From Candidatus Melainabacteria bacterium (GTDB lineage: Bacteria > Cyanobacteriota > Vampirovibrionia > Obscuribacterales > Obscuribacteraceae), in contig PLXC01000017.1 in NCBI GenBank assembly GCA_003151275.1, positions 1 to 43,527 of the forward strand: 43,527 nt of DNA. The letters run 5' to 3'. Shown here in pieces: positions 1,966 through 9,269 of this stretch. Under the pieces are notes generated by a model, which did not search any database, had not been told where the DNA came from, and was given only the letters and a program-made list of their open reading frames with translations. A program made the translations under genes and the position numbers. Positions within the stretch are counted from its first letter, which is position 1. Every line of letters begins with the position of its first letter.

Positions 1966-3471
1966 CTAAACAGAAACGAGTTTCTTTTCTTGCCGACGAG
2001 GCAGTTCATAATTCATGATGTCCATCAAGAGTTCCATTCTCGTTCCGCTGCATAACAACGGAATCAAGTCTGGCAAGCTGTAATAGTCACCTTTGAATGT
2101 GAATGTATCGACTTCGATGTCGGTACCCTTCAAGCTGCGTTCAACCGCGTCTGAGAACTTGCCAACGTTCACGATAATGACGCTTGGCATTAAATTCATT
2201 GTATCAGCGTAGCTTTTCATCGCTGCAGCAAACAGCGGGTTCGCATTTTCGCCCTGGTCAGTGACCATTACGATCTGCTCAACCAAGCTTTTGTTTCGAC
2301 GCAACATTTCTATGGACACACCACAGGAGGTGTTGCCACCAGCTTTGATGCCGTGAAATGCTTTTTCCCAGTGGGATAAATCTGCGCCCTTAGCTTTGAT
2401 TTCATACGCCATGCTATCGAATGCATAAACATACAAACCAGCTTCACAAATTGGTGCAACCAAGCTTGCTACTTGCTTTCCAACTTCAATGGCTTCTTCC
2501 ATAGATCCACTTTTGTCGATTAAGAGAGCAGTGGATTTTTTGATTTTGCCTTTGGACTTAACTTGATGGTCGCCAACAGCCTCCACTTTGCGGGCCATGT
2601 CATCGTCCAAATTAGCAGCTGCCATCGCTTGTCGCGTTTTCAACGCTGATACGCGTTTGTCGGTCTTACCACTTTCGAGTTTAGACTCGATCAAACTTCG
2701 CAAATCAGCATTGTCCATCGCACCGCGCTTTTTCAAGCTAGCGAGATTGTTGATTACTTCTTGCGGTGTCATCACAGACACAATGGCAACGAGTGCCGCT
2801 GGGGTCAGATTTTTGATCACAGATGACGCAACACGATATGGAATTTTATTTTCAACAATCAGACGTGCTTGTTCCGTCGGATCAGTGCTTGCAGCAATCT
2901 GCTTCAAAGCAAACAGCCTGCTGTGTTCTGGCGGCTTTTCTTCAAACAACACTTTCTGCGCATATTCACCTGGCTTAATACGCAACGATGCGTACAAAGT
3001 TTTCAATGATTTTCTCGCATGCAATGCAGCTGAATCGAATGCTCGTTGGTCGCGTTCGCGTCCATCCAAATAATGCTTAATCGCACTACGCAGTGAACGT
3101 GGCACTGAACCAGCGATACCAGGAACAAATGTCTTGCCGGAACGGTGTCCTTTCACGACTCGAACAACACGCTCCACTTGATATGGAGGCATTTTTTCAA
3201 GCATGCACAAGCCAGTATCTCTAAACTCGTCAGAGAACTTCGATGTGACCATGACAGCAACGAACAACTGCTTCAAGTCGTGCACGGAACCATTGGCGAA
3301 ATACCACGCAGCAAGATGACCGAAGAACAACGGATCGTTTTCGTGTACGTGCTGAAACAAGGGAACGTGCGGCGCCACGTCACGGTGCGGCGTGCGCAGG
3401 AGAGCATTGAGAATGCTCAGTCTGTAGTCTTGTTCAGACCCGATAGGATTTCGAATCAGATGATCGAACAT
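1966..3471 (-). CDS. Ro60-like protein: TROVE domain plus vWA domain
   Basis: 501-residue protein resembling Ro60/Rsr, the ring-shaped protein that binds Y RNAs and helps exoribonucleases handle structured or misfolded RNA. Residues 1 to about 300 are all-helical and fit a divergent TROVE ring; the stretch around IPYRVASSVIKNLTP and TPQEVINNLASLKKRG matches the Ro pattern of a short helix followed by a ring-closing helix. Residues about 310-500 form a vWA domain with an intact MIDAS: DKSGS (319-323), Thr381 in GGNTSCG and Asp405 in VTDQGEN. The start at 3471 follows AAGGTG six bases upstream; a longer frame to 3519 lacks such a site. Six Y-RNA-like genes lie upstream on the same strand, the nearest 217 bases away, which strongly supports a Ro60 role. 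A vWA-only protein of other function is the alternative. Confidence 0.75.
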   Translation of the reverse strand: MFDHLIRNPIGSEQDYRLSILNALLRTPHRDVAPHVPLFQHVHENDPLFFGHLAAWYFANGSVHDLKQLFVAVMVTSKFSDEFRDTGLCMLEKMPPYQVERVVRVVKGHRSGKTFVPGIAGSVPRSLRSAIKHYLDGRERDQRAFDSAALHARKSLKTLYASLRIKPGEYAQKVLFEEKPPEHSRLFALKQIAASTDPTEQARLIVENKIPYRVASSVIKNLTPAALVAIVSVMTPQEVINNLASLKKRGAMDNADLRSLIESKLESGKTDKRVSALKTRQAMAAANLDDDMARKVEAVGDHQVKSKGKIKKSTALLIDKSGSMEEAIEVGKQVASLVAPICEAGLYVYAFDSMAYEIKAKGADLSHWEKAFHGIKAGGNTSCGVSIEMLRRNKSLVEQIVMVTDQGENANPLFAAAMKSYADTMNLMPSVIIVNVGKFSDAVERSLKGTDIEVDTFTFKGDYYSLPDLIPLLCSGTRMELLMDIMNYELPRRQEKKLVSV

Positions 3472-3687
3472 GATTTCACCTTGCTGGCTCTCGTAGCAGC
3501 AACGAAAGTCTCTAACCAATTCAGGTGTGGACGAAACAAAACGCCCACGCCCGGGATTCCTGTGTCAGTTTCGGGATTCCTGTATTTAGCTTTTTTGCGA
3601 CCCGGTGCTTCCATCAGCACTAATCCACGGTGCGAAAAAAACTAACTTCAAAGCCGAAAGTGATTGAGTATTCAGTTAAATAAATGG

Positions 3688-3756
3688 GTCTGTATAAGTT
3701 GCAAGAGCTAGTTTAAACAACCATAGTTTGTAGGCTCTAGCGGTTAGGATACAGAC
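3688..3756 (-). ncRNA. Y-RNA-like RNA, minimal form (element A)
   Basis: 69-nt element. The outer stem is GTCTGTAT (3756-3749) pairing with ATACAGAC (3695-3688), eight pairs without mismatch. An internal loop follows (TCCTAACCG on the 5' side, TTGCAACTT on the 3' side), then an AGAGC/GCTCT upper stem. The apical part is only about 25 nt, with a possible AAAC/GTTT hairpin and no tRNA-like arms. The 5' half shares the AAC..G...GAGC.TACA pattern, and the 3' half the GCTC...C(G/A)ACTT.TACAG pattern, with five other elements in the window. It is the copy nearest the Ro60-like gene. Its -10 box (TATCAT, 3765-3770) is placed as in the other copies but the -35 is poor. Confidence 0.68.
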
Positions 3757-3764
3757 TTATCTGT

Positions 3765-3770
3765 ATGATA
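3765..3770 (-). promoter_or_regulatory. Putative -10 box of element A
   Basis: TATCAT on the minus strand, 8 nt before the first base of the element A stem. The distance fits the 4-9 nt seen at the other five elements. No convincing -35 hexamer is visible at 16-18 nt, so this promoter is weaker evidence than the others. Confidence 0.4.
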
Positions 3771-3827
3771 CACCGAGGTTTGATTTTAGGCATTTGTTTA
3801 AATCACCTTCCCTTGTACTCTCGGTGT
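3770..3827 (-). other. Hairpin of unknown role between elements A and B
   Basis: ACACCGAG (3770-3777) and CTCGGTGT (3820-3827) form an eight-pair stem. Inside it a second GATTT/AAATC pairing can form. It lacks the AAC..G / C(G/A)ACTT internal-loop pattern of the Y-RNA-like elements. It could be part of a longer transcript from the element B promoter, a processing signal, or a further small RNA. Strand is uncertain. Confidence 0.4.
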
Positions 3828-3840
3828 CGTCAAAAATTTG

Positions 3841-3978
3841 GCCTGTGCAAGTCGAGAGAGCTGTTTCTGAGACGCTACCCTCAGGTATAGCTGGTGGGAG
3901 AATCGTCTCCTACGTCGGTTATGAGCCGCACCGCTTTACGCGATCATGTTTGTAAGCTCTTACTGTTAGAGCACAGGC
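3841..3978 (-). ncRNA. Y-RNA-like RNA with degenerate tRNA-Met-like arms (element B)
   Basis: 138-nt element closed by GCCTGTGC (3978-3971) and GCACAGGC (3848-3841), then the shared internal loop (CTCTAACAG / CTCGACTT) and an AGAGCT upper stem. The apical part holds four hairpins in order. ATCGC-GTAAA-GCGGT (3930-3944) is in the D-arm position. CGG-CTCATAA-CCG (3916-3928) is an anticodon-like arm with a CAU triplet in a loop identical to that of Met tRNAs. GGAG-ACGATT-CTCC (3897-3910) looks like a T arm with one loop base lost. The last is GCTATACC..GGTAGC (3874-3891). The order matches element D. A run of five T follows the 3' end. A good sigma70-type promoter precedes it. Confidence 0.72.
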
Positions 3979-3987
3979 TAGTTTCTC

Positions 3988-4016
3988 ATTATATACAAAA
4001 CTCAGCCCGTTGTCAG
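3988..4016 (-). promoter_or_regulatory. Sigma70-type promoter of element B
   Basis: -35 CTGACA (4011-4016), 17-nt spacer, perfect -10 TATAAT (3988-3993), then 9 nt to the first base of the closing stem. This supports independent transcription of element B from the minus strand. Confidence 0.75.
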
Positions 4017-4262
4017 CAGTTATTTCTCGAATTAATATTTGCACTGCTGATGGTGGCATCTCGAAACTGTCCGCTATCACTAATTTTACGCCAAATCAAA
4101 TTTCAAAATAACAAGAAAAGGAAGCCAACTTAGGATCGAAATTACTTTCAATTTAAAGTGCGGATTGAACCTTAAAGTCCAACTTTCAACGCGAACGGAC
4201 TTGCAACCTGATTGCGGAAGAGTCTCGGCCGAGAAGGCATAAAGTTCAATATAACAGAAAGA

Positions 4263-4334
4263 GTGGCCCGTACAAGTCGCATGAGCTGTGCAATTTTACC
4301 GTTTGTAAGCTCTTGCTGTTAGAGTGCGGGCTAC
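4263..4334 (-). ncRNA. Y-RNA-like RNA, minimal form (element C)
   Basis: 72-nt element. The outer helix pairs 4334-4324 with 4273-4263 and has two A/C mismatches on the minus strand. The internal loop CTCTAACAG / TGCGACTTG and the upper stem GAGCT/AGCTC are as in the other elements. The apical loop is about 20 nt (TTACAAACGGTAAAATTGCAC), with no tRNA-like arms. The 5' strand is nearly identical to element B over CTCTAACAG.AAGAGCTTACAAAC, so B and C are probably recent duplicates that differ only in the inserted module. The mismatches would be G-U pairs on the plus strand, which leaves some doubt about strand for this copy alone. Confidence 0.62.
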
Positions 4335-4338
4335 TTCC

Positions 4339-4367
4339 ACAATAGCACCTGGAGTGAGACTTGCCTA
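4339..4367 (-). promoter_or_regulatory. Putative extended -10 promoter of element C
   Basis: -35-like TAGGCA (4362-4367), 17-nt spacer ending in TGC, -10 TATTGT (4339-4344). The TGn motif makes it an extended -10 promoter. The -35 matches consensus at four of six bases. Confidence 0.5.
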
Positions 4368-4384
4368 TAACGACCCGGCTAACT

Positions 4385-5521
4385 TTACTTCAGGCCGCCT
4401 CTCCACTCATTACTGAATTTCACAACGGAATCGAGCAACGCTTTTAGGCGCTTCGCTCTTTGCATAATTTCAGAGGCGGTTTCCATATCTTGATTTTGAA
4501 TCGATTTCACACCAATAGGCGTGAGCAACTCCAATTGCTGATCTATCACCTCCGCAAATTGATTGCACTCATTAAGAACGACTACCAAATTCTGTTGCAA
4601 CAGGTCTTGCACGGAATTCTGCCTCTGAACTGGGGCGCTGGTGTGCATTGGTGCAGACGTAGGAGAAGCCGGCGCAGGATATGCTCCCTGTCCCTGTTGC
4701 GTCGACATTGGCTGAGGAGTGGGACCCGGATACGGTTGAGCTGACTGCTGTTGAGCTGGTTGTGGCAATGGCTGAGGAGGATTTTCATCCAACAGCCATT
4801 CAGGCTTGAGCAATTCCATTTGATTACCATTTGCACCAGCAAAGGAACTCGTGCGAGCTGGAAGACCGGGAGGAGGAGGCGCGTACTGATTTAATGAGAA
4901 TTTATCCGTGTCCCGCGCTTCGCCTCGGGCGACCATTACTAAATGAGCAAACAGTTTCTTGGCAATCGCGGAGGATTGGTCCATTGCTACAGGTTGATTA
5001 TCCAACTGCCAGTTAATCTTGCTCTTGTTTTGTGTCGCCACCATTTCCATGTAGAGCGGAAATTCATGGTGCCGCGAGTTGAATCCCATCAAGACGCCTA
5101 CGGGAATTACGTAAGCTTGGATTTTGAAAAACTCGCCACGCACTACCAATGCCCACTGATTCGTAGAGAGATAACCGATTGATGTGATCGATGATTCTTG
5201 TCCAGGCGCTTTCGCTTCTTGCAGAGTTGGTCGTGTGCAATTGACCTGCAACTCAGGCTCACTGCACATGCGGCTAAAATCAAATGTGTATCGTTGAAAG
5301 TGATCGAACAAATTATCAACCCACGCCGGCATCGAGCGAGGCGGTTCTTGATTTGGATCGGCATCCCCTTTGATTTCGACTGAATCTTCGACTGCATCTG
5401 TGCTCAGCGCTGCTAGCCACTTAGAAGTGTGCTCGCCGCTAAAAGGTTTTATCGAATTGAGAATTCGCTTGGATAGTGGGTCAGCGCCAGCGCCACCGCT
5501 ACGATGCTTTTCGTCAGTCAT
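4385..5521 (-). CDS. Hypothetical protein with proline-rich linker
   Basis: 378 residues, family not recognised. Residues 1-60 are polar. About 65-210 look like a folded domain with hydrophobic strands (WALVVRGEFFKIQAYVIPVGV, then FPLYMEMVATQNKSKINWQLD) and a helix AIAKKLFAHLVMVARG. About 215-310 is a disordered Pro/Gln/Ala-rich linker. About 312-378 is predicted helical (VQDLLQQNLVVVLNECNQF onward). I see no signal peptide or membrane segment. I prefer the ATG at 5521; a GTG at 5530 and a TTG at 5527 are possible because a GAGG lies close by. The gene sits between Y-RNA-like elements C and D, all on the same strand, so a link to the Ro/Y RNA system is possible from position only. Confidence 0.75.
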   Translation of the reverse strand: MTDEKHRSGGAGADPLSKRILNSIKPFSGEHTSKWLAALSTDAVEDSVEIKGDADPNQEPPRSMPAWVDNLFDHFQRYTFDFSRMCSEPELQVNCTRPTLQEAKAPGQESSITSIGYLSTNQWALVVRGEFFKIQAYVIPVGVLMGFNSRHHEFPLYMEMVATQNKSKINWQLDNQPVAMDQSSAIAKKLFAHLVMVARGEARDTDKFSLNQYAPPPPGLPARTSSFAGANGNQMELLKPEWLLDENPPQPLPQPAQQQSAQPYPGPTPQPMSTQQGQGAYPAPASPTSAPMHTSAPVQRQNSVQDLLQQNLVVVLNECNQFAEVIDQQLELLTPIGVKSIQNQDMETASEIMQRAKRLKALLDSVVKFSNEWRGGLK

Positions 5522-5786
5522 AACCAACACGTCCTCATGCCAGCAATCCTATAAACAATCTTCCCACAAGACTGCTCGTGCAACCAAAGTCTGCACCGAT
5601 ATGGGCAGGTTAATTGCAAACCACGGACTCGGTGCTCCCGGGATAAATACTCGCAGCAAAGTCCCTCAAGGGCCCGTCAAACCAGCCTTAACGAGGAAGT
5701 CAGCAATCAAATCGGATCTGATTCCGCCAGACTTCGCACAACAGAGTCGACCCAGCCAGTCATTTCATTTTTCGTGCTAATAATTT

Positions 5787-5921
5787 CGCCTGTACGAGTT
5801 GCGAGAGCTGAACCAACAGCTTTCGCTGTCGACGAACGGAGTTGAACCGTTAACCAAATTCTTTTCGGAATTTGCTCTACCAATGAGCTACGTGTGTATG
5901 CTCTCTCGGTTTGAGTACAAG
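5787..5921 (-). ncRNA. Y-RNA-like RNA with canonical-order tRNA-Phe-like module (element D)
   Basis: About 135 nt. The outer stem is CTTGTAC (5921-5915) with GTACAGG (5795-5789), then the shared internal loop (TCAAACCG / CGCAACTC) and GAGAGC/GCTCTC. The apical part is tRNA-like in normal order. UA is followed by D arm GCTC-ATTGGTA-GAGC (5874-5888). Next is an anticodon-like arm AAATTC-CGAAAA-GAATTT (5856-5873), whose loop looks like Phe TUGAAAA with a base lost. Then come GGTT and T arm AACGG-TTCAACT-CCGTT (5835-5851) with consensus T loop. Only three acceptor pairs remain (ACG 5893-5891 with CGT 5834-5832). A GNRA hairpin ACAGC-GAAA-GCTGT (5816-5829) follows. The Y helix replaces the rest of the acceptor stem. 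It cannot be an aminoacylated tRNA because it has no acceptor end. Confidence 0.78.
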
Positions 5922-5930
5922 TTTACAACC

Positions 5931-5958
5931 ATTGTAGCTGAAAAAGGGAGGATGTCAA
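5931..5958 (-). promoter_or_regulatory. Sigma70-type promoter of element D
   Basis: -35 TTGACA (5953-5958), 16-nt spacer, -10 TACAAT (5931-5936), then 9 nt to the start of the closing stem. Confidence 0.72.
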
Positions 5959-6146
5959 TGTAGCCTTTCAGTTACATTACGTTAGCAAAAATACTGTTTT
6001 CAACTCGATTAATTTCATTTTCGGCTATAGTACCAACTCATCGCAACAAAATTTTCGTTGGGGCGTCATAGCTTTAACTCATCAAGCATGACTCATATGT
6101 AATCCCCAACCGATCAAAATCCCGTCACTCGTAAGGAGAGAAAAAA

Positions 6147-6482
6147 ATGACAGAAGCTCGTAAATTTTTAGCCGCAACTGTGGGTTTCTGCTTTGCAGTA
6201 GGAATGCCGGTTTTAGCTGACACCTCAGTGCACGAAGAAGAACATCATGCATCATCAACATCAACTCAGTCGGATCCACCAGTTGTAATATCGCCTGCAC
6301 CTTCGAGCAGCACGACTAGCAGCACGACGTCCACGAATGTAAATCCTGCATCAGTTCGCCAAACCACTGTTAAGTCAAAAGTTAGAACTCCAATCGGTAA
6401 AGTTAAGTCCAAAACTACAACTACTGAAGCCGTTCCTGGTTCTGTACAATCAACAACAACCAAAGTGCACACCGAAGATTAG
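6147..6482 (+). CDS. Small secreted Ser/Thr-rich protein
   Basis: 111 residues, family not recognised. Residues 1-24 are a clear Sec signal peptide (positive start MTEARK, hydrophobic core, likely cut after VLA). The mature part is short, polar and disordered, rich in Ser and Thr, with a basic middle (VKSKVRTPIGKVKSK). An AAGGAGAG ribosome binding site lies seven bases before the ATG. It is a single-gene unit: divergent from the Y-RNA-like element D and followed by a strong hairpin shared with the convergent adenylyltransferase gene. Confidence 0.8.
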   Translation: MTEARKFLAATVGFCFAVGMPVLADTSVHEEEHHASSTSTQSDPPVVISPAPSSSTTSSTTSTNVNPASVRQTTVKSKVRTPIGKVKSKTTTTEAVPGSVQSTTTKVHTED

Positions 6483-6518
6483 ATCTGCCAACACAGCTAA
6501 TTGAAGTCTATTAAATTG

Positions 6519-6555
6519 AAAAGTCTATCGAGGCACGCTGCTTCGATAGACTTTT
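6519..6555. terminator. Bidirectional terminator-like hairpin
   Basis: A perfect 13-bp inverted repeat, AAAAGTCTATCGA (6519-6531) and TCGATAGACTTTT (6543-6555), with an 11-nt loop. T runs close the stem in both directions, so it can serve both the small secreted protein gene on the plus strand and the E1-like gene on the minus strand. Confidence 0.8.
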
Positions 6556-6585
6556 CTCTAACCGTATTTCGATAGATCTCTCTGG

Positions 6586-7227
6586 TTAATGCTCGTCGAC
6601 GTTGATTGAAAGATCCGCGAGGGTAACCGACAGATTCTTCAGTTCTCCATTGAGAAGATAACGAACAATTGTCTCGCTCGTCATTGCAACGACAATCATA
6701 ATCAGATTACGCGCCAGAGGATAATCACAAACATCATCATTGGCATCACCAGGCACAATGTAATTTTCGTTCCATTGCACCTGCCCATATTCACCGTTTA
6801 AACCTGCGTGCAAGCAAACGTAATTAGATTGTTTGCAGATGTCGAAAATCAACTTGCGGCTGACAGAATTATCGAAAGCGTCCACAACCAAGTCGTGACC
6901 GCGCAACAACTTAAGTGCATTTTTCTCAGTCAATTCTTGCGGCACGGAAACGATTTCTTCACCAACCTCCCGATAGATCAAGTTACGCAAAATATCGGAT
7001 TTCAATCCACCAATGTCGTCAACACCATACACTTGAGTGCCAATATTGTGCTGCTCGACTCGATCTTTGTCGACTAGGGTGAGTTTGGTAACACCCATCC
7101 GAACAAGATTAACCGCAAGATTCGAGCCGATTGCACCGGCACCACAAATCACAATCTTCGCTGAAGCGAGTTTTTGCATCGCTTCGTTCCCTCTCAGGAT
7201 TTGTTCATGATGCCATTTATTAGCCAT
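6586..7227 (-). CDS. E1-like ThiF/MoeB-family adenylyltransferase
   Basis: 213 residues. The family adenylates the C-terminal glycine of ubiquitin-like or sulfur-carrier proteins. A Rossmann nucleotide site is seen at GAGAIGSNL (about 29-37), an acidic strand end LVDKDRVEQHNIGTQ (51-65), and the D-x-x-D-N-x-x-x-R motif (VVDAFDNSVSRKL, 114-126). Cys167 in DDVCDYP is the best candidate for a thioester cysteine. There is no zinc-binding CxxC pair and no rhodanese domain, so the protein is shorter than MoeB. GAGG lies seven bases before the ATG. It is the last gene of a four-gene operon, 25 bases after the JAMM peptidase gene. The operon context favours protein conjugation over thiamine or molybdopterin synthesis. 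Confidence 0.85.
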   Translation of the reverse strand: MANKWHHEQILRGNEAMQKLASAKIVICGAGAIGSNLAVNLVRMGVTKLTLVDKDRVEQHNIGTQVYGVDDIGGLKSDILRNLIYREVGEEIVSVPQELTEKNALKLLRGHDLVVDAFDNSVSRKLIFDICKQSNYVCLHAGLNGEYGQVQWNENYIVPGDANDDVCDYPLARNLIMIVVAMTSETIVRYLLNGELKNLSVTLADLSINVDEH

Positions 7228-7252
7228 TGCCGATCCTCAAATTGTACGGAGT

Positions 7253-7630
7253 TTAAGTCAGGGCCACGAGATAACCGCTTTTAAATCTTTGAATACGCTT
7301 TAAAGGTTCAGCGGCTTCCTTTGTATGATCAAATACCCAACCATTCAATCGATTGTCAGCCTGAATAACGCAAAGAAGTGGCTTACCGAAGCTGATTGTC
7401 CAGGCGCGCATAGTTCTATGATCGCGTGAACTTGGTTCTGGGATTCCATCAGGATGTGTGTGAAAAAAACCGATTACGTCACCTCTCTTTTCCTCACGAG
7501 TAAGAGCAACTTGCCAATCAAAATCAACCTCGACCGCGGTACCTGATGATCTCTTAGTTGGCTTGGCATGCCAGATTCCGCCGATCAATTGACCAGTGAG
7601 GATATAGCAAACTTCGCATTTAAAACTCAT
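7253..7630 (-). CDS. JAMM/JAB (Mov34/MPN) metallopeptidase
   Basis: 125 residues with the zinc-binding JAMM signature GFFHTHPDGIPEPSSRDH: H-x-H-P, then Ser and Asp at the usual spacing; a glutamate on the early strand (EVDFDWQ) may be the general base. Such enzymes remove or mature ubiquitin-like proteins or release sulfur carriers. I start at 7630, which overlaps the preceding gene by 11 bases; a start at 7660 would overlap by 41. The gene lies between the 297-residue protein and the E1-like gene, the usual company of bacterial ubiquitin-like systems. Confidence 0.83.
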   Translation of the reverse strand: MSFKCEVCYILTGQLIGGIWHAKPTKRSSGTAVEVDFDWQVALTREEKRGDVIGFFHTHPDGIPEPSSRDHRTMRAWTISFGKPLLCVIQADNRLNGWVFDHTKEAAEPLKRIQRFKSGYLVALT

Positions 7631-8513
7631 CCGAGTATCCACTTTCACGCATAACGCCAACTAAACTAGTTAAATCAAAATTTTGATCTTGTCCTGACAA
7701 ACATATACCAGCACTAATGACTCCGAGATCGCTTGGACGAATTTCGGAAACATGGACGGCCCCGTCAACAATATAACGAACGGAAACCCTGTCTGTTCCT
7801 TGACTCCAGAATCCGTCAAGCTGAGCGCCGGCATGAGTGAGTGCATCTTCAATTCGCTGCGCATCGGTCTGGGGAGCCCGTCGAATTAGACCGCCTGATT
7901 CAGGATGCTTTTTTATCCAAAGCATGCGGTAGGCAACTCGCTCTTGTGGAACAGCGCCTAAAACACGCAGCTTCTCAGGCTCGACATCCTCTTGCAGTGC
8001 TTGGCGCAAGGAACGAGCTATAGATGGATCGCGGCGTCGATCGGTAGACTCATACCAAAAAGCAGCCCCGTCGAAGCGGGTGCATACTGTCTCGAACGTG
8101 CCTACTCGGTGCGCAAATCGTATCGGAATTGGACCAGCAATTTGGGCACGGCTATCCGCAGTAGAAGCTTGAAGACCCCACCACTTGGTGTCAAATTCGT
8201 CCAATAGAACGATTCGAAAGCGTGGCAGAAAATGCAAGTATCCTTTAATTTGCTCAAGAGTAGGCGCACCGCATACGGTAGCAGACTTGCCTGGCGACGA
8301 TTTGAGAACCGCCCAACCTTCGAAGGAAGGATCAGTCAAAGTCATCTTGTAGGCGATGCCACCAATTTGAACAGAGACCTGCCCGCCAGGCACAACTGGA
8401 GCCACAAACGATCTCGAAAGAACGCGTTCTTCTTCCAAGGCCAACTTGTTGATCATCGCTAGAGGATCTAAGAGAGAGGGAGTTTTTTTGTCCTCCCTCT
8501 CATCTCTAGTCAT
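7620..8513 (-). CDS. Unrecognised protein of the ubiquitin-like operon
   Basis: 297 residues, no family recognised with certainty. It is soluble, without signal peptide. Notable segments are RFRIVLLDEFDTKWWGL (about 98-114), IPIRFAHRVGTFETVCTRFDGAAFWYE (about 129-155) and the C-terminal ISAGICLSGQDQNFDLTSLVGVM (about 267-289). Cysteines at about 81, 145 and 271 could be checked as transfer residues. Its start codon overlaps the stop of the ubiquitin-like gene (ATGA), so the two are translationally coupled. By position it might be the E2-like or adaptor component of the conjugation system, but the sequence alone does not show this. Confidence 0.78.
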   Translation of the reverse strand: MTRDEREDKKTPSLLDPLAMINKLALEEERVLSRSFVAPVVPGGQVSVQIGGIAYKMTLTDPSFEGWAVLKSSPGKSATVCGAPTLEQIKGYLHFLPRFRIVLLDEFDTKWWGLQASTADSRAQIAGPIPIRFAHRVGTFETVCTRFDGAAFWYESTDRRRDPSIARSLRQALQEDVEPEKLRVLGAVPQERVAYRMLWIKKHPESGGLIRRAPQTDAQRIEDALTHAGAQLDGFWSQGTDRVSVRYIVDGAVHVSEIRPSDLGVISAGICLSGQDQNFDLTSLVGVMRESGYSDEF

Positions 8514-8770
8514 CCGAATACCGCCTCGGGACGCAGCGTCAAGTTACCGTTTGCATGCCGCTCAATGACAGTGGCATCGAAACTAACCAGAGCGACATCG
8601 AGAAATTGAGCTACTGCCATTTTGACTTCGTCATCCGGTGTACCGGCGTTTATAGCCAGCGTATCCAGAGCGATGTCACGGCTCCGTCCCTGGAAACGCA
8701 GGTGGAGAACGCCTGAGGTGGCTTGGTCATTTGCAAGATTGTAGAGAGTTTTTGGATCATTAGTGCTCAT
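8510..8770 (-). CDS. Candidate ubiquitin-like (beta-grasp) small protein
   Basis: 86 residues. The pattern VLHLRFQG / RDIALDTLAI / TPDDEVKMAVAQFLDV / FDATVIERHANGNLTLRP fits a beta-beta-alpha-beta-beta grasp fold. The chain ends in AVFG, leaving a single C-terminal glycine exposed as in activated ubiquitin-like modifiers. An excellent AGGAGGTG site lies four bases before the ATG at 8770, which decides this start over the longer frame. It is first in an operon with a 297-residue protein, a JAMM peptidase and an E1-like enzyme. The start is 47 bases downstream of Y-RNA-like element E, so the operon may be read from that RNA's promoter. Confidence 0.65.
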   Translation of the reverse strand: MSTNDPKTLYNLANDQATSGVLHLRFQGRSRDIALDTLAINAGTPDDEVKMAVAQFLDVALVSFDATVIERHANGNLTLRPEAVFG

Positions 8771-8817
8771 ACCACACCTCCTACCAGTTGATGTAATGTG
8801 ATGACGACAAAAGGGTT

Positions 8818-8952
8818 GCCTGTACAAGTTGCAGGAGCTGTGTTTAGTGCTCTACCACTGAGCTACAGCGCCAATTGTGGCGCTGAAAGGACTCGAACCT
8901 TTGACCTCTCCGTTAGAAGCGGAATGTATGCTCCTCCTGTTGGGATACAGGC
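8818..8952 (-). ncRNA. Y-RNA-like RNA with circularly permuted tRNA-Arg(UCU)-like module (element E)
   Basis: 135 nt. The outer stem is GCCTGTAT (8952-8945) with GTACAGGC (8825-8818), then the shared internal loop (CCCAACAG / TGCAACTT) and GGAGC/GCTCC. The apical part is a tRNA cut at 26/27 and rejoined at its ends. In order: anticodon arm TTCCG-CTTCTAA-CGGAG (8908-8924) with U33 and anticodon UCU; variable loop AGGTC (8903-8907); T arm AAAGG-TTCGAGT-CCTTT (8886-8902); acceptor strand CAGCGCC, linker ACAATT, acceptor strand GGCGCTG (8866-8885, seven pairs); UA; D arm GCTC-AGTGGTA-GAGC (8849-8863). All tRNA consensus loop bases are on the minus strand. A CCCTTTT follows the 3' end. A working permuted tRNA is the alternative reading. 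Confidence 0.8.
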
Positions 8953-8959
8953 TGAAGTC

Positions 8960-8989
8960 ATTCTAAAGGCAGAAGCGATTCTTTGTCAA
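8960..8989 (-). promoter_or_regulatory. Sigma70-type promoter of element E
   Basis: -35 TTGACA (8984-8989), 18-nt spacer, -10 TAGAAT (8960-8965), 7 nt to the closing stem. The -35 context GCTTGACAA is identical to that of element F. It may also drive the ubiquitin-like operon by read-through. Confidence 0.75.
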
Positions 8990-9122
8990 GCGGTACCCCC
9001 AGCCATTCTCCGAGCAAGCATGATTGTCGACAGCCACTAAATATGGTGCCGAACGCAATTCATGAATTTTCGGTTATGGGATGACTGATTGGCAAAGTAG
9101 CGACCTCAATGTAAAAAGTAAA

Positions 9123-9232
9123 CGTCTGTACAAGTCGAAGGAGCAATTTGGCGCTCTACCACTGAGCAATAGTCCGAAGACTACAGGATTCGAACCTGAA
9201 GGTTGTATGCTCCCCCTGTTGGAGTACAGGCG
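9123..9232 (-). ncRNA. Y-RNA-like RNA with permuted tRNA-like module lacking anticodon arm (element F)
   Basis: 110 nt. The outer stem is CGCCTGTAC (9232-9224) with GTACAGACG (9131-9123), with one C/A mismatch. Then come the shared internal loop (TCCAACAG / TTCGACTT) and GGAGC/GCTCC. The apical module reads T arm CAGG-TTCGAAT-CCTG (9184-9198), a closed acceptor stem TAGTC-TTCG-GACTA (9170-9183) capped by a stable cUUCGg tetraloop, UU, then D arm GCTC-AGTGGTA-GAGC (9153-9167). There is no anticodon arm: the Y helix takes its place. This matches the tRNA mimicry described for bacterial YrlA-type Y RNAs. A TTTACTTTTT tract follows the 3' end. Confidence 0.82.
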
Positions 9233-9240
9233 GAAGATCC

Positions 9241-9269
9241 ATTCTATTCGTCAGCCGAAAGCTTGTCAA
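9241..9269 (-). promoter_or_regulatory. Sigma70-type promoter of element F
   Basis: Perfect -35 TTGACA (9264-9269), 17-nt spacer, -10 TAGAAT (9241-9246), 8 nt to the closing stem. It is among the best promoter matches in the window. Confidence 0.8.

Follow-up and report, generated by a model that had tools for sequence, protein, structure and literature searches.

The DNA analysed here is a stretch of 43,527 nucleotides (nt), referred to throughout as the window, from Candidatus Melainabacteria bacterium (assembly GCA_003151275.1, contig PLXC01000017.1). Its minus strand carries a gene for a Ro60-like protein and, upstream of this gene, six short elements (E1 to E6) that share a closing helix and enclose different modules. 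Bit scores and E-values in the list that follows are those of the refined covariance model R2, described below.

1966..3471, minus strand: Ro60-like protein of 501 residues, a helical-repeat ring with a vWA domain that has a DxSxS metal site
3686..3756, minus strand: E1, closing helix with a short hairpin module (64.8 bits, E 3.5e-12)
3839..3978, minus strand: E2, closing helix with a module of several hairpins (53.7 bits, E 1.8e-9)
4264..4331, minus strand: E3, closing helix with a short hairpin module (59.1 bits, E 8.8e-11)
5786..5922, minus strand: E4, closing helix with a linear tRNA-like module (43.7 bits, E 5e-7)
8816..8952, minus strand: E5, closing helix with a circularly permuted tRNA-like module (52.5 bits, E 3.7e-9)
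9122..9231, minus strand: E6, closing helix with a YrlA-like module (51.9 bits, E 5.2e-9)

A preliminary description of this DNA had noted six elements on one strand with a common closing helix, all within 6 kb upstream of the gene, and this observation is confirmed. Across the window the two half-helix patterns each occur six times on the minus strand and not at all on the plus strand, and they pair into exactly six elements; these lie 0.2–5.7 kb upstream of the Ro60-like gene and on its strand, E1 being the nearest (215 nt upstream). R2 finds E1–E6 and no other match in the window at E ≤ 1e-3. The helix consensus starts with an 8-bp outer helix and continues through a 7 × 5 internal loop (5′ strand YCNAACN, 3′ strand RACUU); the inner helix, of at most 8 bp, ends in GAGC/GCUC and is followed by an unpaired NUACA. 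When the six elements are aligned with two relatives, 93.8% of the cells in the outer helix are paired and two-sided changes occur at 4 of its 8 pairs, and because of this we take the compensating changes first noticed in the outer stem to be real. The closing helix as originally drawn stands as regards the outer helix and the loop, which are shared, but less so for the inner helix, where 85.9% of the cells are paired and several elements are not fully paired.

The helix recurs in relatives. Genomic loci of the Ro60-like gene were sampled as the best 80 of 195, giving 81 loci with the window; L-numbers (L001, L018 and so on) are labels of these sampled loci and of further loci described below. 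A covariance-model search of related genomes, as the preliminary description had proposed, was made with a first model, R1, built from the six window elements and two relatives; searched over 1.41 Mb, it gave 70 matches at E ≤ 0.03. With the window and L001, L002 and L005 set aside, 61 matches are found in 52 further loci, and 57 of these lie within 3 kb upstream of the gene and on its strand, the others being one on the opposite strand and three downstream. At its threshold of E ≤ 1e-3, R2 gives 324 matches (113 + 102 + 109) in the window and the 80 loci, 323 of them on the gene strand, 308 upstream of the gene, 16 downstream and none inside it. At least one match is present in 77 of the 80 loci, and the remaining three have just 9, 51 and 158 nt of upstream sequence; the distance from the Ro60-like gene to the nearest element upstream is usually no more than a few hundred nt. 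Conservation beside the gene in relatives, on which the preliminary description had made its reading depend, is seen in 77 of these 80 loci. R2 was trained on matches from the very loci that it then counts, and for this reason R1 and a set of viral loci serve as the independent tests. The viral set holds 14 loci (13 IMG/VR contigs and the 595-kb phage record LR756511), with one cyanobacterial plasmid locus in addition, all outside the R2 training; six of the 14 and the plasmid locus have R2 matches at E ≤ 1e-3. In nine whole genomes, with 150 candidates scored per genome, 35 of 38 R2 matches are at the Ro60-like locus.

Selection on the structure is seen in the covariation, 15 of the 16 pairs showing two-sided changes across 67 distinct sequences. 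Cells with such changes number 245, compared with 93 ± 9 after shuffling (none of 500 shuffles reaches the observed value) and at most 60 for slid structures, in an alignment that was fitted to the structure, which favours high two-sided counts. A terminal helix with an internal loop or bulge, under structural selection, is a feature of bacterial Y RNAs that the elements share. The association of helix and gene extends over records titled Cyanobacteria, Melainabacteria/Obscuribacterales, Planctomycetes, Thermoflexales, Acidobacteria and Desulfococcaceae, together with phage contigs, and supports reading the shared helix as an RNA feature that is conserved together with the Ro60-like gene. Copy number was counted in the 63 loci, the window among them, that have more than 5 kb of upstream sequence: the median is four elements per locus and the maximum nine, with six or more in 18 of the 63 and one in nine. 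The suggestion that six copies are unusually rich is not borne out by these counts. Some loci, L004 and L006–L010 among them, have just a single short element.

The predicted structure of the 501-residue protein shows the Ro60/Rsr fold over its full length, with a ring of helical repeats and a vWA domain. The metal site of the latter (D319, S321 and S323, the DxSxS motif) is invariant in 26 sequences, and the profile vWA_Ro60 (PF25045) matches 11 of 26 family members. The predicted fold and the profile search together support the identification of the protein as a divergent Ro60. Its first assignment as a TROVE/vWA gene thus holds for the Ro60/Rsr fold, by prediction and by profile search, but not for the Pfam TROVE family (PF05731), which is unmatched.

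The modules enclosed by the helix differ from one element to the next. E4 has a D arm, an anticodon-arm-like hairpin, a T arm and one further hairpin, and the closing helix occupies the place of the acceptor stem; the stretch 5832–5893 scores 37.3 bits with the Rfam tRNA family RF00005, above its gathering score of 29, and E4 passes a linear tRNA signature. In E5 the order is anticodon arm (UCU), T arm, 7-bp acceptor closed by a hexaloop, and D arm, and a permuted tRNA signature is passed. When the E5 module is rotated ARAGORN calls a tRNA-Arg(tct), a call also made for 128 of 2000 partial shuffles, and the unrotated module gives no call; its score with YrlA (RF02553) is 38.5 bits, below the gathering score of 69. 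Neither E4 nor E5 combines a 7-bp acceptor of its own with free 5′ and 3′ ends, as a canonical tRNA does. E6 has a T arm, a UUCG-closed helix and a D arm, without an anticodon arm, and passes neither the linear nor the permuted signature. E2 contains, by eye, an anticodon-arm-like CGG-CUCAUAA-CCG and has no Rfam match, the Rfam scans having covered the window and 11 of the 80 loci (L001–L007, L009, L018, L038 and L066). A module of the E2 type, with several hairpins and an anticodon-arm-like CUCAUAA loop, is also present at L002:9514–9658. A tRNA-like domain of the kind found in bacterial Y RNAs is present in the window in E4 and E5, and in the relatives in part; Chen et al. in 2014 reportedly described at least one Y RNA with such a domain per species.

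Among relatives the range of modules is wider. A same-strand ARAGORN tRNA lies inside 83 of the 324 elements, in 48 loci and none of them in the window. The permuted signature (T arm, acceptor-like hairpin, D arm) is found in 44 of 324 elements compared with none of 6480 shuffled modules, and the linear signature (D arm before T arm) in 39 of 324 compared with one of 6480; they occur in 35 and 31 loci respectively, the window being counted in both. Other modules resemble ribosomal RNA (rRNA). In relatives, mostly cyanobacteria, 20 elements match nt 1909–1941 of Escherichia coli 23S rRNA and 15 other elements match nt 1037–1114; all 15 of the latter also carry AGUACGAGAGG, which in four of them was aligned to nt 2652–2665. 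We take the three stretches, in the order given, to be the H69 region, the GTPase-associated centre and the sarcin-ricin loop. Rfam RF02541 (bacterial large ribosomal subunit) scores 52.5 bits at L018:3473–3528, which exceeds its gathering score (50); two further elements reach 44.7 and 37.6 bits. In the class matching nt 1909–1941 the match starts within H69 and a stretch like the H69 5′ strand is found, by eye, at the other end of the module; on this account the closing helix seems to be grafted on to an opened H69 loop, giving a permuted H69 region. Four of 39 rRNA-matching elements were dropped as incidental (16S 318–341; 23S 1376–1402; and 23S 1094–1112 twice, inside tRNA-like modules). 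The idea of one helix with interchangeable modules, put forward for the window, is thereby borne out and extended to tRNA-like and 23S-rRNA-like modules.

The H69-like elements are ∼180–220 nt long (L012:7884–8074, L014:7982–8169, L019:141–331, L066:9115–9306 and others). Elements of ∼205–235 nt combine segments like the GTPase centre with segments like the sarcin-ricin loop, often several kb from the Ro60-like gene; examples are L018:3373–3585, L018:14611–14817 and L129:15189–15393, with others in L011, L015, L037, L038, L045, L051, L060, L064, L070, L075, L077 and L079. In eight loci (L011, L015, L018, L037, L038, L045, L051 and L052) an array of 19–32 tRNA genes is found no farther than 10 kb from the Ro60-like gene.

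Four of the window elements are preceded by promoter-like sites, each scoring 11 out of 12.

3988..4016, minus strand: promoter-like site of E2, CTGACA-17-TATAAT
5931..5958, minus strand: promoter-like site of E4, TTGACA-16-TACAAT
8960..8989, minus strand: promoter-like site of E5, TTGACA-18-TAGAAT
9241..9269, minus strand: promoter-like site of E6, TTGACA-17-TAGAAT

These sites are sigma-70-like, with the −10 box 7–9 nt before the helix, and their score is reached by one of 6460 random places. The sites at E1 and E3 are weak, at 8 out of 12, a score reached by 6% of random places. A promoter for each element, as originally envisaged, is therefore supported for E2, E4, E5 and E6 and not for E1 and E3. 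In all loci a run of at least four T residues follows 109 of 323 elements, compared with 7% of random places.

The window elements are interleaved with a group of genes that we describe as a candidate ubiquitin-like operon. A further frame lies between E3 and E4.

8510..8770, minus strand: candidate ubiquitin-like protein of 86 residues ending in RPEAVFG, from its C-terminal motif and size
7620..8513, minus strand: conserved protein of 297 residues with an invariant Cys (GICLSG); cluster in 42 of 81 loci, alignment of 30
7253..7660, minus strand: JAB-type isopeptidase-like protein (Prok-JAB E 1.1e-8); cluster in 5 of 81 loci
6586..7227, minus strand: ThiF/E1-type adenylating enzyme (ThiF E 4.8e-32; profile to eukaryotic E1 E 2.6e-18)
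4385..5530, minus strand: protein of 381 residues, no Pfam match, membership of the system not established

Two of the families, the E1-like adenylating enzyme and the JAB protein, were matched, and the putative modifier is recognised by its C-terminal motif and size; no E2-type enzyme was confirmed, and that the 297-residue protein, which has no clear solved fold, is a conjugating enzyme is a guess. Neighbour clusters were built by BLAST of frames of at least 90 residues, with Pfam naming for some members only, and part of the candidate operon recurs in relatives. The cluster of the E1-like enzyme is present in 37 of 81 loci, in all 37 on the Ro60 strand. Small proteins with an RP.A..G-type C-terminus occur in 54 of 81 loci, and in 34 of the 44 that have more than 8 kb of sequence on both sides; wherever found, the gene for this protein is on the upstream side of the Ro60-like gene, interspersed with the elements or adjoining them. 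A small protein of the RPEAVFG type is also present in five of the 14 viral loci, and Ro60-like gene, elements and candidate ubiquitin-like protein are found together in the viral contigs L115, L116, L126, L127 and L128. A KptA-type cluster occurs in seven loci and an RNA-ligase-type cluster in six, one member of each being confirmed by Pfam; in L011 these are an RNA 2′-phosphotransferase KptA (L011:15307–15852) and an RNA ligase (L011:13155–14147). The same locus has two conserved proteins of ∼245 and ∼160 residues (L011:8010–8747 and L011:9347–9838) upstream of the Ro60-like gene, in the element stretch, with relatives in 23 and 20 loci.

We consider it reasonably probable that the system consists of a Ro60-like ring and six predicted adaptor RNAs, with the common helix as handle and the differing modules displayed from it. 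The closing helix is likely to be the handle by which the Ro60-like protein binds all six RNAs, and the whole would best be read as a variant Ro60/Y RNA ribonucleoprotein (RNP) whose adaptor repertoire imitates the translation machinery. The elements would be transcribed from their own promoters, and the closing helix would bind the outer surface of the Ro60-like ring. Each RNA would then serve as an adaptor, its module recruiting enzymes that normally act on the RNA it imitates; such partners could be enzymes of tRNA processing, modification, repair or cleavage, or factors that act on the ribosome. If the modules recruit such enzymes, the ring would therefore handle damaged or misfolded tRNA and rRNA, as we propose, and the candidate ubiquitin-like operon, with its E1-like, JAB and small C-terminal-glycine proteins, may tag a protein partner of the RNP.

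A number of results weigh against this reading. As to the modules, just two of the six in the window pass a tRNA signature (E4 the linear, E5 the permuted), E1–E3 have no tRNA or rRNA match, none of the six is called as a tRNA by ARAGORN and none has an rRNA-like module, and E6 has only a sub-threshold score with RF02553 (24.4 bits). The link between elements and gene is not complete: the 16 elements downstream of the Ro60-like gene are exceptions, as are 3 of the 38 whole-genome matches, which lie away from the locus. Two such off-locus elements (L099 and L104) lie in stretches of ∼3.1 kb with tRNA arrays, holding 16 and 18 ARAGORN tRNAs respectively (of the 16, one lies within the element); no Ro60-like gene was found in the ∼3.1 kb around either. 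Eight of the 14 viral loci have no R2 match at E ≤ 1e-3, and in the viral locus L118 the matches are on the strand opposite to the gene. Promoter enrichment over all loci is modest, a score of 9 being reached at 29 of 323 elements compared with 1.4% of random places. Among the proteins, Pfam TROVE (PF05731) has no match to the window protein at E ≤ 0.1 or to any of 26 family members at E ≤ 0.01; the candidate ubiquitin-like protein has no Pfam match (two sequences scanned) and no significant solved relative, and the 297-residue protein has no Pfam match either. The handle also differs in form from the vertebrate Ro60 site: the latter is reported to be a 7-bp helix in which a single C is bulged out and the opposite strand carries a 3-nt bulge (PMC4726728), whereas the helix described here has 8 bp and a 7 × 5 loop.

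The sequence does not decide between adaptors and decoys, and decoys are the main rival to adaptors. RNase toxins and drugs that act on the ribosome classically attack the very sites that the modules imitate. The modules could be baits or sensors, offering decoy anticodon loops, H69 regions, GTPase centres and sarcin-ricin loops that protect the real tRNAs and ribosomes from nucleases, ribotoxins and drugs or that report an attack, an explanation that we regard as possible but doubtful. The tRNA arrays of the eight loci named above would fit it, and carriage by phages would suit a role in anti-defence; translation-targeting antibiotics are reported to induce a cyanobacterial tRNA array (PMC10272220). 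The tRNA-like domain of YrlA has been suggested to inhibit an anticodon nuclease competitively, but the same report describes it as not a substrate of the Salmonella enzyme (PMC7790460), and a lone decoy would need neither a ring nor an operon with an E1-like enzyme. With ring and operon included, one may picture an RNP of Cyanobacteria, their relatives, Planctomycetes and giant phages that holds, on one Ro60 handle, a library of look-alikes of the translation machinery (tRNAs in linear and circularly permuted form, the 23S H69 region and a GTPase-centre/sarcin-ricin-loop fusion) as exchangeable baits for enzymes, toxins and factors that act on tRNA and ribosome, with the ubiquitin-like operon marking the catch; this we put forward tentatively, as an unlikely but not negligible form of the system.

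That the elements instead act in cis, as leaders that let the Ro60-like protein regulate its own mRNA and those of the neighbouring genes, seems improbable. It would agree with the proximity of E1 to the Ro60-like gene (215 nt) and of E5 to the frame of the candidate ubiquitin-like protein (45 nt upstream), and with the character of the gene-nearest element, which is short and lacks tRNA motifs in 53 of 77 cases and has a median length of 82 nt compared with 126 nt for the second. Arrays of up to nine elements with tRNA- and rRNA-like modules are difficult to reconcile with leaders, however, as are the promoter-like sites of four of the six window elements and the U-runs that follow about a third of all elements. 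It is very improbable that the ubiquitin-like operon, or some other neighbour that binds RNA, is what the RNAs serve, with the Ro60-like gene a mere companion; where found, the candidate ubiquitin-like gene does lie in or next to the stretch of elements upstream of the Ro60-like gene, but it was detected in 54 of 81 loci whereas elements are present in 78 of 81 (window counted), and the nearest element usually lies close to the Ro60-like gene. Descent of the elements from degenerate tRNA genes, as remains of tRNA arrays with the shared helix as a by-product, is strongly disfavoured: tRNA arrays adjoin eight loci, two off-locus elements lie inside such arrays and E4 exceeds the Rfam tRNA gathering score, but the helix is selected at 15 of its 16 pairs and encloses hairpins, tRNA-like and rRNA-like modules alike, and in 59 of 81 loci ARAGORN calls no other tRNA.

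The presence of tRNA-like and ribosome-like modules on one handle makes the adaptor reading directly testable. If the modules that resemble the factor-binding site of the ribosome are confirmed, the mimicry ascribed to Y RNAs would widen from tRNAs to the translation machinery. The candidate ubiquitin-like operon beside them would link RNA surveillance with protein tagging in bacteria and giant phages. A practical caution is that gene finders call tRNAs within such RNAs, as in the 83 elements noted above.

Ro60/Y RNA RNPs and tRNA-like Y RNAs are already known, and the known Y RNAs act as gates and as tethers. By analogy, the nearest precedent is the Deinococcus complex of Ro60, Y RNA and PNPase, in which the Y RNA is reported to tether this exonuclease to the Ro60 ring (PMC4726728). 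In Salmonella the Ro60 and Y RNA genes belong to an RNA repair operon induced by damaged tRNA, for which the authors weighed tRNA decay or competitive inhibition of a nuclease; by the account given there, functional work on bacterial Ro60 and Y RNA was at that time confined to Deinococcus (PMC7790460). The system described here agrees with the bacterial Ro60 (Rsr)/Y RNA systems (Deinococcus radiodurans RYPER and Salmonella rsr-yrlBA-rtcBA) in its Ro60-fold ring, adjoining small-RNA genes and tRNA-like domains, in the RNA repair genes at some loci, and in a closing helix with an internal loop whose 3′ strand has ACUUG as in the RF02553 consensus. It differs in a protein that is missed by Pfam TROVE, in the 5′ strand of the loop (YCNAAC), in the conserved NUACA after the inner helix, in arrays of up to nine elements, in linear tRNA-like and 23S-rRNA-like modules and in the candidate ubiquitin-like operon. 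In the literature searched we find no account of this divergent Ro60-like family with its arrays, of Y RNAs that resemble linear tRNAs or 23S rRNA, or of Ro60 with a ubiquitin-like operon as its neighbour, some of which may be in print (Chen et al. 2014).

The window elements are below the gathering score of RF02553 (E5 and E6) or unlisted for it, and this score is not reached in the window or in the 11 relatives scanned, the best of which gives 46.1 bits. E5 and E6 nevertheless share with YrlA the order of T arm, acceptor-like helix and D arm, E5 differing in that it keeps an anticodon arm, which is absent from the RF02553 consensus. Bacterial Y RNAs are reported not to be homologous to those of vertebrates, and at least 18 sbRNA genes are reported for Caenorhabditis elegans (PMC4726728); with vertebrate Y RNAs and nematode sbRNAs the present elements have in common a terminal bulged stem as a presumed protein handle, a variable inside and several copies per genome. 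A ROT/TROVE protein has been described in a small subset of jumbo phages, with a tRNA-like partner in cellular organisms (PMC7824862); unlike these reported phage proteins, the homologues on phage contigs found here have element arrays next to them in 6 of 14 loci and a candidate ubiquitin-like protein in 5 of 14.

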